Assembly: GCF_000177675.1 (NCBI RefSeq)
Contig: NZ_ADGX01000023.1
Span: forward strand, 1 to 64,000
DNA from: Parafrankia sp. EUN1f
GTDB lineage: Bacteria; Actinomycetota; Actinomycetes; Frankiales; Frankiaceae
Length of the DNA stretch: 64,000 nucleotides
Direction: 5' to 3'
The notes below the pieces were generated by a model, which had not been told where the DNA came from, ran no database searches, and saw nothing but the letters and a program-made list of their open reading frames with translations. Below are positions 61,220 through 64,000 of this stretch, one piece after another. The position numbers were made by a program, and so were the translations under genes. Position 1 is the stretch's first letter. Each line of letters starts with the position of its first letter.

Positions 61220-61591
61220 TCAGCTGCTGGGCGGGTTGACGGTGGCCTGGACGGCGACGAACGCGGCGACGGCGAGCACGAGGTACGCGAAGGACCCGCG
61301 CAGGCGGTCGGCGGGCAGGTTGACACCGAACCGTCCGGCCAGCAGTGAGCCGATGATCGCGGTGGCGGTGAACACGGCGGTGATGCCGTGGTCGAGCGTG
61401 GCGTCACCGGCATGGGCGGCGAAGCCGGCGGCGGAGTTGATGACGAGGACAGCCAGGGAGGTGCCGACCGCCAGGGGCATGGGCAGGCCGAGGAACAGCA
61501 CGAGCGCGGGGACGGCCAGGATGCCGCCGCCACCGCCGAGCAGGCCGAGCAGGACTCCGATCGCCGCACCGAGGCCCAGCGCGGCGATCAC
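61220..61591 (-). CDS. half-size TauE/SafE (TSUP) sulfur-anion exporter
   Basis: The 123-residue protein has four membrane segments and carries [20 protein letters not shown], then [18 protein letters not shown]. These are the signatures of the C-terminal half of TauE/SafE exporters, which are usually about 250 residues with two such halves. The GTG start overlaps the upstream rhodanese stop as GTGA, so it appears to be a genuine separate protein. Full function would need dimerisation. It probably exports sulfite or a related anion from the operon's persulfide reactions. Confidence 0.8.
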
Positions 61592-62187
61592 GGCCGCGGG
61601 CCGGCCAGGGCCGCGATGACGCCGCCGATGTCGAGGCGGGGGCCGCGGTTGTAGGGGAGCTTCGCCAGCAGCATCGCCATCGTGCAGGTGTTCGTCAGGG
61701 CCGCCACGGTCAGGCCGGTGCCGATCCCCGCCGCGACCCACTTCGCGCGGGGGATCACCGTGCTGGCCACGACCGAGCCGAGCACGATGGAGCCGGCGAC
61801 GAGGCGGACCTGCCGTTCGAGCTCCCAGCGGGGTCGGCCGGCGCGCACGGGGGCGTCCAGGGCCTGCCAGGCGCCCAGGCCACCGTTGAGGACCCGCGGG
61901 GTCGCCACGCCCGCCGCGGCGAGGTCCGCTGCGGCCGCGGTGGCACGCTGCCCGGAGCCGCAGACGAGCACGACGTGCTCGTCGAGGTGGGTGCGCAGGT
62001 CGTCGAGGTGGGCGCGCAGCAGATCGAGCGGAACGTTGTGGGAGCCGGGAATGTGGGCCGTCTCGAACTCGCCCGGGGTGCGCACGTCGACCAGCCGCGG
62101 TGGCTGCGCCGTGCCCATCAGCTGTGCCAGGGTGGCCGCGTCGATCGTGGCGGCGCTCCCGCCGGCGGTGGGGGCGTTGCGGGTCAT
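61588..62187 (-). CDS. rhodanese with C-terminal DUF2892-type membrane part
   Basis: The 199-residue protein has a rhodanese domain with [20 protein letters not shown] and the catalytic cysteine in [11 protein letters not shown] membrane section with [20 protein letters not shown] follows. It moves sulfane sulfur between donors and acceptors at the membrane. The ATG has a GGAG site and overlaps the previous stop; the stop overlaps the TauE-half start. It is the second gene of the sulfur operon. Confidence 0.88.
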
Positions 62188-63698
62188 CGGATCTCCGTTT
62201 CGTTGTTGACGAAGGTCAGGCCGGCATCGGCGGCGGCGGGAAAGTCGTCGTCGAGATGCACCACCTGGCGGCCGGCGCGTTGCAGCAGGCTGGCGGCGAC
62301 CGCGGCGCGGTACCCGGATCCGCAGTGCACCCAGACGGTGCCGGCGGGGATCTCGCCGAGCCGGGCCGGCAGGTCGGGCAGGGGGATGTGCATGGCGCCG
62401 TCGAGGCGGCCGGCGCGCCACTCGTTGCCCAGGCGCACGTCGAGCACGACATCCGGCGCCGGCAGCGACAGCGGCAGTGGCGGTGACTGCGGCGGTGGCG
62501 GTGACTGCGGTGACGGCGACAGCGGCGACAGCGGGAGAGACGGCGGCGGCAGTGGAAGCCCGGGCGGGACGGTTCCGCGGCGGGCGGCGGCGAGGTCGGC
62601 GAACGTGGCGGTGGCGAGGCGGGCGAGGTGCTGCTCCTCGCCGGCGGCCCAGCGGTCGGGATCGCCGGTCGCGGCGGCGGCGGGCCGGTCGATGCCGATG
62701 CGGGCGAGTTCGCGCTGGGCGTCGGCGACCTGCTGCTCGCTTTCGCCGAGCAGGGTGATCGGCGTACCCCATGGGGCCAGCCAGCCCAGCCAGGTGGACA
62801 TCGGTCCGTCCAGGCCGAAGCTCAGCGTGCCGGCGAGGTGCCGGTGCGCGAACGCCCTGCGCGAGCGCAGGTCGACCACCCACTCGCCGGCGGTGATCCG
62901 CTCGCGCAGCTCGGCCGGGTCGGCCCGGCGGGCCGGGGTGAGATCGACCGGCGCGGCACCGTCGGCGTTACGGGCACCCATGTGCGCGTAGTAGGCCGGG
63001 TAGGCGTCGAGCCCGGCGAGGACCTCGGTGACGAACGCGTCGCTCTCCAGCCGCAGCGCGGGGTTGACCTGCCGTTCCCGGCCGATCGTGGAGGCACGGG
63101 CGTCGGACTGGGTGGCGGAGCAGAAGCTGCCGAACCCGTGGGTCGGCCAGATCCGCGTGCCGTCGGGCAGCAGGTCGGCGAGGCGGCGCGCCGAGGCGTG
63201 CTGCTGCGCGGCGAGGGTGTGGGCGTGGCGCTGGCCGAGCAGGTCGGTGCGGCCGGTGGTGCCGAACAGCAGCGACCCGCCGGTGAACACCCCCACCGGC
63301 CCGCCGGTGGCGTCGAGGACGTACGACAGGTGGTGGAACGTGTGCCCGGGAGTGGCGACCACCCGCAGCCGCATCACGCCCGACACCGCGATCTCGTCGC
63401 CGTCGGCGACAGGGAGGCGGTCGAAGCCCACCACGTCGCTGGCCGCGACCAGATACCGGGCGCCGGTGATCCGGGCCAGGGCGAGCCCGCCGGAGACGTA
63501 GTCGTTGTGCAGGTGCGTCTCGGCGACGTGGGTGACCCGGACCCCGAGCCGCCCGGCCACGGCGAGGACCCGGTCGATGTCACGCTGCGGATCGACCACG
63601 ACCGCGACCTGCCCGTCGTGCGCCAGGTAGCTGCGATCACCCAGCGACGAGGTCTCCACGACCTGGACGTCGATCCGGACATCCGCTCCCACGGTCAT
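62184..63698 (-). CDS. MBL-fold persulfide dioxygenase fused to rhodanese domains (CstB/Blh-like)
   Basis: The 504-residue protein begins with a metallo-beta-lactamase domain with ETHLHNDYVSGG (His62, His64, Asp66), TPGHTFHHLSY and WPTHGFGSFC, the persulfide dioxygenase type. A degenerate rhodanese-like domain (WVVDLRSRRAFAHRH) and a C-terminal active rhodanese domain with VWVHCGSGYRA follow. The C-terminal linker is a Pro/Ser repeat. It oxidises persulfides to sulfite or thiosulfate. ATG 63698 has an AAGGGA site. First gene of the operon. Confidence 0.9.
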   Translation of the reverse strand: MTVGADVRIDVQVVETSSLGDRSYLAHDGQVAVVVDPQRDIDRVLAVAGRLGVRVTHVAETHLHNDYVSGGLALARITGARYLVAASDVVGFDRLPVADGDEIAVSGVMRLRVVATPGHTFHHLSYVLDATGGPVGVFTGGSLLFGTTGRTDLLGQRHAHTLAAQQHASARRLADLLPDGTRIWPTHGFGSFCSATQSDARASTIGRERQVNPALRLESDAFVTEVLAGLDAYPAYYAHMGARNADGAAPVDLTPARRADPAELRERITAGEWVVDLRSRRAFAHRHLAGTLSFGLDGPMSTWLGWLAPWGTPITLLGESEQQVADAQRELARIGIDRPAAAATGDPDRWAAGEEQHLARLATATFADLAAARRGTVPPGLPLPPPSLPLSPLSPSPQSPPPPQSPPLPLSLPAPDVVLDVRLGNEWRAGRLDGAMHIPLPDLPARLGEIPAGTVWVHCGSGYRAAVAASLLQRAGRQVVHLDDDFPAAADAGLTFVNNETEIR

Positions 63699-64000
63699 CG
63701 GCTTTTCCCTTCGGCTCGTCTGGTCGTCTGCTCATCTGTTCGCCGGTCGCGCCTGCTTGCTGGTCGTGCCTGGTCGCTGACGTCGAGGTGGTGCGGGTGC
63801 GGCCGGGTCAGCGGCTCGCCGGCGTCCCGCGGAGTGCGGGCCGGCACCTGACCGGTGCCCGGCGGCGGCGCGACGGCACCCACCGATGCCCGGCGGGACG
63901 GAACCGCCAGGTCGGCCCGTCGGCGCCGCCCCCGGACGGGCGCCCCTATACCCGGGGGGGTATCTGCGGAACCTGCTACAGCGGCGCCGCGCCACGCGGG
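63699..64000. other. control region of the sulfur operon
   Basis: This 302-bp region is upstream of the operon. A 62-codon frame ending at 63695 is arginine/proline-rich and not accepted. The region contains the CsoR/CstR-type operator at 63948-63963. A regulator gene may lie just beyond the right edge. Confidence 0.5.
63948..63963. promoter_or_regulatory. CsoR/CstR/RcnR-type operator
   Basis: ATACCC-GGGG-GGGTAT is a 16-bp palindrome-like site matching the A/T plus G-tract architecture of CsoR-family operators. CstR, a persulfide sensor of this family, controls the same kind of operon in other bacteria. It lies about 250 bp upstream of the persulfide dioxygenase start, in the right region to control it and a divergent gene. 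Confidence 0.75.

Follow-up and report, generated by a model that had tools for sequence, protein, structure and literature searches.

A sulfur-detoxification operon of Parafrankia sp. EUN1f with a TauE gene probably shortened by an in-frame deletion

Is a half-size TauE a minimal exporter, or is it what is left of a larger one? The question is raised by an operon of Parafrankia sp. EUN1f that lies in a 64,000-nucleotide stretch of DNA (the window: positions 1–64,000 of contig NZ_ADGX01000023.1, assembly GCF_000177675.1), where genes for a persulfide dioxygenase (PDO) and a rhodanese are followed by a tauE gene of only 123 codons. A sequence-only reading of the window had taken the single-repeat TauE for a minimal exporter that should assemble as a homodimer. 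Comparison with related genomes points to another answer, to which a probability of about 0.72 is given: the operon is of the CstR type, and its tauE gene was shortened by a recent in-frame deletion of 405 bp, most likely leaving a product without exporter function.

Origin of the short tauE gene

The nearest relative genome (G004, 93–96% identical in DNA across the region) has a TauE of 258 amino acids with two repeats at the same position, and two-repeat TauE genes also lie beside the PDO genes of three other relatives (G001, G026 and G003). An intact full-length gene in the same operon of relatives, which the sequence-only reading had itself named as the sign of a truncation, was thus found in all four. 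Aligned with the G004 gene, the window gene is identical at 363 of 372 nucleotides and shows a single in-frame gap of 405 bp. The best breakpoints fall at nucleotides 79–93, in stretches that code for VPALV in repeat 1 and IPALV in repeat 2 and share the PALV motif. The window protein is a chimera, with codons 1 to 27–31 from repeat 1 and the remainder, which is most of repeat 2, from the latter. Its earlier description as a 123-residue C-terminal half holds for the length and for the single repeat; a bare C-terminal half was rejected, as the N-terminal codons match repeat 1. Some of the junction bases fit each parent and one fits neither, and the contig is collinear with that of G004 on both flanks. 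The best account of the half-size gene is an in-frame deletion at the level of the strain or the species; a slippage or short-homology event where PALV is encoded would have removed the 405 bp between the homologous repeats.

The genome collections sampled hold one genome per species, and records very close to the window genome may be left out of them. The survey of the operon covered 64 named loci at which a relative of the window TauE is encoded, together with the four relatives above, 68 in all, two of the loci (L044 and L108) being the same place. Both TauE repeats stand in one frame at 61 of the 64 named loci, including L044, which is also the place of the G001 gene; of the other three, L049 is cut off where its contig starts, a single stop codon interrupts the linker of L096, and L074 has a frameshift. 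A clean half-size TauE was found at none of the 64. The half-size form is not conserved in related operons, and the notion that it is typical of them was rejected on these counts. Within the lineage of the window protein, no half-size TauE was found besides the window copy and a remnant in G028 (L017, L111). This separate remnant of the same TauE lineage consists of a 5'-truncated repeat 2, lies beside a frame that was read as sulfite-oxidase-like without a family search, and is apparently the result of an independent decay event.

The window genome (G000) is a 9.35-Mb draft of 396 contigs with an estimated contamination of 4.86%. It gave no second match to the window TauE at E 0.001. Pfam detects in it three complete TauE genes, a fourth that seems to be divided between two contig ends (C205 and C223) and one partial gene on C388. 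The last (80737–81105; L012 4552–5193) is an N-terminal half whose frame continues without likeness to TauE; it adjoins the apparent end of a gene for an ABC solute-binding protein and is perhaps degraded. If the strain needs to export sulfite, full-length TauE paralogues elsewhere in the genome would have to do so.

The deletion took with it a feature of the family. The linker between the repeats carries a pair of cysteines that is invariant in an alignment of 27 rows and is read as Cys-Cys in 66 of the 68 rows of a wider set, the two exceptions being L049, which lacks the first column, and L103, in which both cysteines are present in the text and are shifted in the alignment. The pair stands at codons 123 and 135 of the L107 gene, is spaced as C-X11-C, with slight variation, in the relatives of the window, and sits on the side of the protein that is rich in lysine and arginine (K/R). 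Rows of other subfamilies that span the linker have cysteine at neither column (six of six: L020, L022, L024, L031, L033 and L038); among those that do not span it, L001 reaches just the second column, where it has Ile, L029 reaches neither, and L002 and L003 yielded no alignment. The window TauE has no cysteine anywhere. Nor does it have two repeats, whether in one chain or in adjacent halves, a feature that is itself not universal in PF01925, because lone halves exist in other genomes. What remains would be one hybrid repeat that lacks both the linker cysteines and the second, probably oppositely oriented, repeat.

Predicted fold and half-size TauE proteins elsewhere

The orientation of the repeats was considered on a predicted structure. 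An AlphaFold2 model of a full-length relative (the L044 protein, from the 27-row alignment) reached a predicted local distance difference test score (pLDDT) of 83 and a predicted template modelling score (pTM) of 0.82; the single-chain model of the window TauE is weak, at 70 and 0.47. The L044 model aligned with BacA/UppP (6fmt) at a VIA-align Z of 14.4 over 231 of its 258 residues and with 5oon, of the same fold, at 13.9, values that stand far above the next fold (5.8) and have near-full coverage in their favour, yet a Z near 14 is possible for mostly helical models without a clear match. The identity in these alignments is 15–16%, and Foldseek gave BacA only at E 0.019 with a template modelling (TM) score of 0.55, with no match at E 0.001 or below. 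The repeats of BacA are described as having inverted topology, each made of a re-entrant pair and three transmembrane helices (PMC5852022; on the fold see also PMC5861054). The likeness is one of fold at the level of models, and, BacA being a pyrophosphatase, it shows no shared function. A sequence search for a solved TauE structure gave a best E of 0.3.

The distribution of charge points the same way. When the inverted-repeat model is laid over the family, K/R residues number 10.9 on one predicted side and 2.2 on the other (7.5 and 2.2 without the linker), and the bias runs the same way in 27 of 27 rows. Parallel repeats with four crossings each were rejected as an arrangement, the two sides then holding 6.9 and 6.3 without bias. 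In a fold of the BacA type, a one-repeat protein would need to form an antiparallel pair in order to rebuild a transporter. The three K/R residues of the window half all lie on one side, three against none.

Half-size TauE proteins do occur elsewhere in the phylum, and they were collected from a survey of 40 genomes with PF01925, for adjacent half matches, and from a search of 119 genomes with one lone half-size protein. Reading 42 loci and removing seven repeats left 35: 14 adjacent pairs, 12 fused genes, five lone halves and four loci that are partial, cut or broken and were left out of the comparison. Because the loci were picked by similarity to that one protein or from the survey, these proportions are not frequencies, and the pairs were judged to be two genes, rather than sequencing breaks, only by their separate frames with consistent spacing. 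The two members of a pair have opposite K/R bias in 14 of 14 cases, and in the first five also when the start codons were chosen by hand. Among the fused genes, the bias of the repeats is strictly opposite in 10 of 12, ends and linker uncounted, with L146 and L148 as the exceptions. The five lone halves have biases of +2, +2, −1, −1 and +1, the last belonging to a gene that a contig end interrupts. Measured in this way the window half comes to +3, which in small counts from a non-random sample is not far from +2.

The charges of pairs and lone halves follow the pattern expected if an inverted-repeat transporter occurs in split form and in dual-topology form. They support half-size homodimers as a natural kind elsewhere in the phylum, and they suggest a series in the TauE/TSUP family that would run from a single dual-topology gene through adjacent opposite halves to fused inverted repeats. 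The window TauE, by comparison, looks like a fixed-orientation partner without its mate. EmrE is a dual-topology transporter and offers the comparison for the lone half-size proteins; if TauE has an inverted repeat of the BacA type, these natural lone halves would be candidate dual-topology transporters, and the origin of the fold could be tested with small proteins. This side result outweighs the operon itself in importance. Among the matches listed in the open-licence literature, no title or abstract opening dealt with half-size, repeat or dual-topology TauE, or with TauE in the BacA fold.

Damaged copy, working half or misassembly

Several points weigh against the deletion reading, besides the loose Foldseek match to BacA and the Z values that helical models can reach by themselves. 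The deletion is known from one assembly; the short reading frame is open and has kept its translational coupling; and four genomes of 94–99% completeness (G044, G086, G094 and G101, the last with a second, weak match below the cut-off) have no above-cut-off TauE match other than the lone half. Further, non-synonymous (dN) and synonymous (dS) divergence of the remaining tauE sequence from that of G004 is 0.020 and 0.037, a ratio of 0.54 from nine changed codons, five of them non-synonymous. This is far above the ratio for cstR (0.005, 0.095; 0.05), but only slightly above those for the rhodanese gene (0.039, 0.074; 0.52) and the PDO gene (0.022, 0.050; 0.45). With tauE barely above these two neighbours, and on nine differences, dN/dS is no evidence of relaxed constraint and does not tell a functional tauE from one in decay.

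The same figures can be turned in favour of a working minimal exporter, which in a BacA-type fold would be an antiparallel dual-topology homodimer, the deletion having taken a fused inverted repeat back to its single-gene ancestral form: the tauE ratio is only slightly above those of two of the three neighbouring genes. The fusion moreover kept both register and frame and yields one complete repeat, and the lone halves that serve four other genomes as their only above-cut-off TauE, with near-balanced charges (+2, +2, −1, −1), lend such a protein some precedent. Yet the form is absent from the 64 named loci and from the four relatives, the cysteine pair of the family is gone, the charge bias is one-sided, as in one partner type of the natural pairs, and confidence in the single-chain model is low, although low scores could also arise for a dimer subunit that is modelled alone. 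A working minimal exporter is unlikely on this balance, and there is only a slim chance that the window gene, as a natural reversal in which a deletion took a fused inverted repeat back to a single repeat, still gives a product that works as an antiparallel homodimer. Full-length genes at 61 of the named loci and the in-frame deletion relative to G004 tell against the purpose-built homodimer of the sequence-only reading.

It is quite unlikely that the deletion arose in the assembly, through misjoined reads of the two repeats, and that the strain has a full-length tauE. The draft is fragmented and carries some estimated contamination, the repeats resemble one another, and their shared motif is exactly where the junction falls. 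Against this, the repeats of G004 share only short exact stretches near the junction (seven bases at the PALV codons), and a junction with bases that fit each parent and one that fits neither is unlike the collapse of long identical repeats; the collinearity with G004 on both sides argues against it as well. Far less probable is a half subunit whose partner, either a complementary half or a full-length TauE, is encoded at another place in the genome. Split pairs do exist in other members of the phylum (the 14 distinct adjacent pairs), and the window genome has the partial TauE on C388 as well as several full ones. The natural pairs are, however, adjacent genes, and the window TauE is the sole PF01925 match on its contig; the C388 piece is an N-terminal half that runs into a non-TauE frame and looks degraded, and the other TauE proteins gave no match to that of the window at E 0.001. 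Because half of the exporter gene appears to have been lost by an in-frame deletion, a damaged copy is more likely than a new minimal exporter, and the short TauE stands as a caution that a deletion can be misread as a minimal machine.

The operon and its known counterparts

The operon itself was largely as first described. The PDO, rhodanese and tauE genes have the same orientation and are coupled, Pfam confirmed their domains, and the palindrome of CsoR type that had been noted about 250 bp upstream lies 249 bp 5' of the PDO start (Table 1). The regulator gene that had been sought past the right edge is also present, so that the proposal of a sulfur-detoxification operon under CsoR/CstR-type control now has its gene set, regulator gene and two operators, as judged from sequence.

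Table 1. Features of the operon, and loci of half-size TauE genes elsewhere in the phylum
Feature	Position in window, or loci	Strand	Identification
PDO-rhodanese, type III-like persulfide dioxygenase, 504 aa	62184–63698	minus	Pfam Rhodanese and Lactamase_B; HLHNDY, TPGHT, Gly141
Rhodanese with YgaP-like transmembrane protein, 199 aa	61588–62187	minus	PF00581 69.2 bits, PF11127 36.4 bits; 4-base overlap with both neighbours (62184–62187 and 61588–61591)
Shortened TauE, 123 aa, GTG start	61220–61591	minus	PF01925 (TauE/SafE; TSUP, DUF81) 66.8 bits (profile positions 2–110 of 237; curated cut-off 32.6); 405 bp fewer than orthologue
Operator O2, ATACCC-N4-GGGTAT palindrome	63948–63963		Between regulator gene (outside window) and PDO gene
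Adjacent TauE pairs	L112, L113, L114, L115, L118, L126, L128, L131, L133, L134, L136, L138, L143, L149
Lone half-size TauEs	L116, L028, L125, L130

The regulator gene belongs to the CsoR family (PF02583, 69.4 bits), lies just right of the window at C374:64120–64305 on the minus strand and is transcribed toward the PDO gene. Its product of 87 amino acids has Cys33 and Cys62, with Gly58 four residues before the latter. The fingerprint of the copper-sensing CsoR includes a histidine at the position of Gly58, and CstR keeps the two cysteines without this copper ligand; since both cysteines are kept and glycine replaces the histidine, we read the regulator as CstR-like, a probable persulfide sensor, rather than a copper CsoR. 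O2, ATACCCGGGGGGGTAT, fits the form ATACCn6GGTAT exactly. No other exact site occurs in the 9.35 Mb of the genome, and none of 100 shuffles of the window matched it with up to one mismatch allowed. A second operator, O1, ATACCCCGGGGGGTAC, lies 29 bp before the regulator ATG and fits only approximately, one base being changed.

The same layout was found in the four relatives, all with the gene order regulator, PDO, tauE, although no match to the rhodanese gene in the middle was found in G003 (L110). Each of the five genomes has two sites, the first ahead of the regulator gene and the second in the gap that separates this gene from the PDO gene. The second is exact in five of five; the first is exact in G001 and G003, differs by one base in G000 and G026 and by two in G004. 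Of seven genomes searched, these five have the exact operator and are the same five with a strong match to the window TauE; G002 and G005 gave neither. Across the 68 loci, a PDO-like match was found at 63, a rhodanese match at 64, a CstR-like match at 55 and an ATACCn6GGTAT site at 53. Many of the PDO matches are only 28–35% identical, so that some may belong to another subgroup of metallo-beta-lactamase (MBL)-rhodanese proteins, and the gene order is not always that of the window. To the right of the window an ars-type cluster adjoins cstR (C374:64385–66678; L010 6386–8679), with genes for an ArsR-family protein, an ArsI/CadI-like protein above the NCBIfam cut-off, an MIP channel and a protein of the low-molecular-weight phosphatase fold that resembles ArsC, below the NCBIfam cut-offs.

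The operon, presumably inducible by sulfane sulfur, would work as follows. Persulfide would modify the regulator cysteines, the regulator would then leave its two operators, the dioxygenase would oxidise persulfide to sulfite, the rhodaneses would pass on sulfane sulfur, and a TauE would export the sulfite. The PDO has an MBL domain followed by a C-terminal rhodanese, as in type III persulfide dioxygenases. The Pro/Ser/Leu-rich linker at residues ~372–415 varies in length among close relatives (PDO of 504 against 490 amino acids). The iron site of ETHE1 consists of two histidines and one aspartate, the aspartate being an iron ligand. Both histidines are present in the window protein, and the aspartate position is taken by Gly141 (codon 63276–63278), where PDB 3tp9 and 3r2u have the Asp of SGDF. 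An alignment of 63 rows including the window, with PDO-like frames from 62 of 67 loci, falls into 23 rows with Gly, all HxHND, and 40 with Asp, all HxHAD. As the ETHE1 ligand is replaced by glycine, the Gly/HxHND subgroup may have an altered metal site.

As an operon, the locus is ordinary and of a known bacterial type for sulfide and polysulfide detoxification. The cst operon of Staphylococcus aureus comprises CstR, CstA, CstB, SQR and TauE, and the window operon resembles it in its CsoR-family regulator gene, its CstB-like dioxygenase-rhodanese and its TauE. It differs in that no SQR- or CstA-like gene was seen among the neighbours read, no search having been aimed at either. The window PDO matches PDB 3r2u, which we take to be CstB, at 2e-43, and also matches 3tp9; 3r2u is of the HxHAD/Asp kind, unlike the HxHND/Gly protein of the window.

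The closest counterpart is the sulfane-sulfur circuit around SCO0618–SCO0620 of Streptomyces coelicolor, in which this gene set and operator type have already been put to the test. The system has a CsoR-like regulator, PDO, rhodanese and TauE with a proposed site ATACCn6GGTAT, its PDO oxidised glutathione persulfide (GSSH) experimentally, and its TauE "probably" exports sulfite (PMC7533328). The two share the four kinds of genes, the operator form, two regulator sites and a PDO with a C-terminal rhodanese. They differ in order, the gene numbers of S. coelicolor placing TauE between PDO and regulator, and in the placing of the operators, which flank the regulator gene in the window species and both lie in the pdo promoter of S. 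coelicolor (PMC7533328). The Parafrankia locus adds to this type a related example with an operator unique in its genome and, unlike the S. coelicolor system, with a TauE cut to one repeat.

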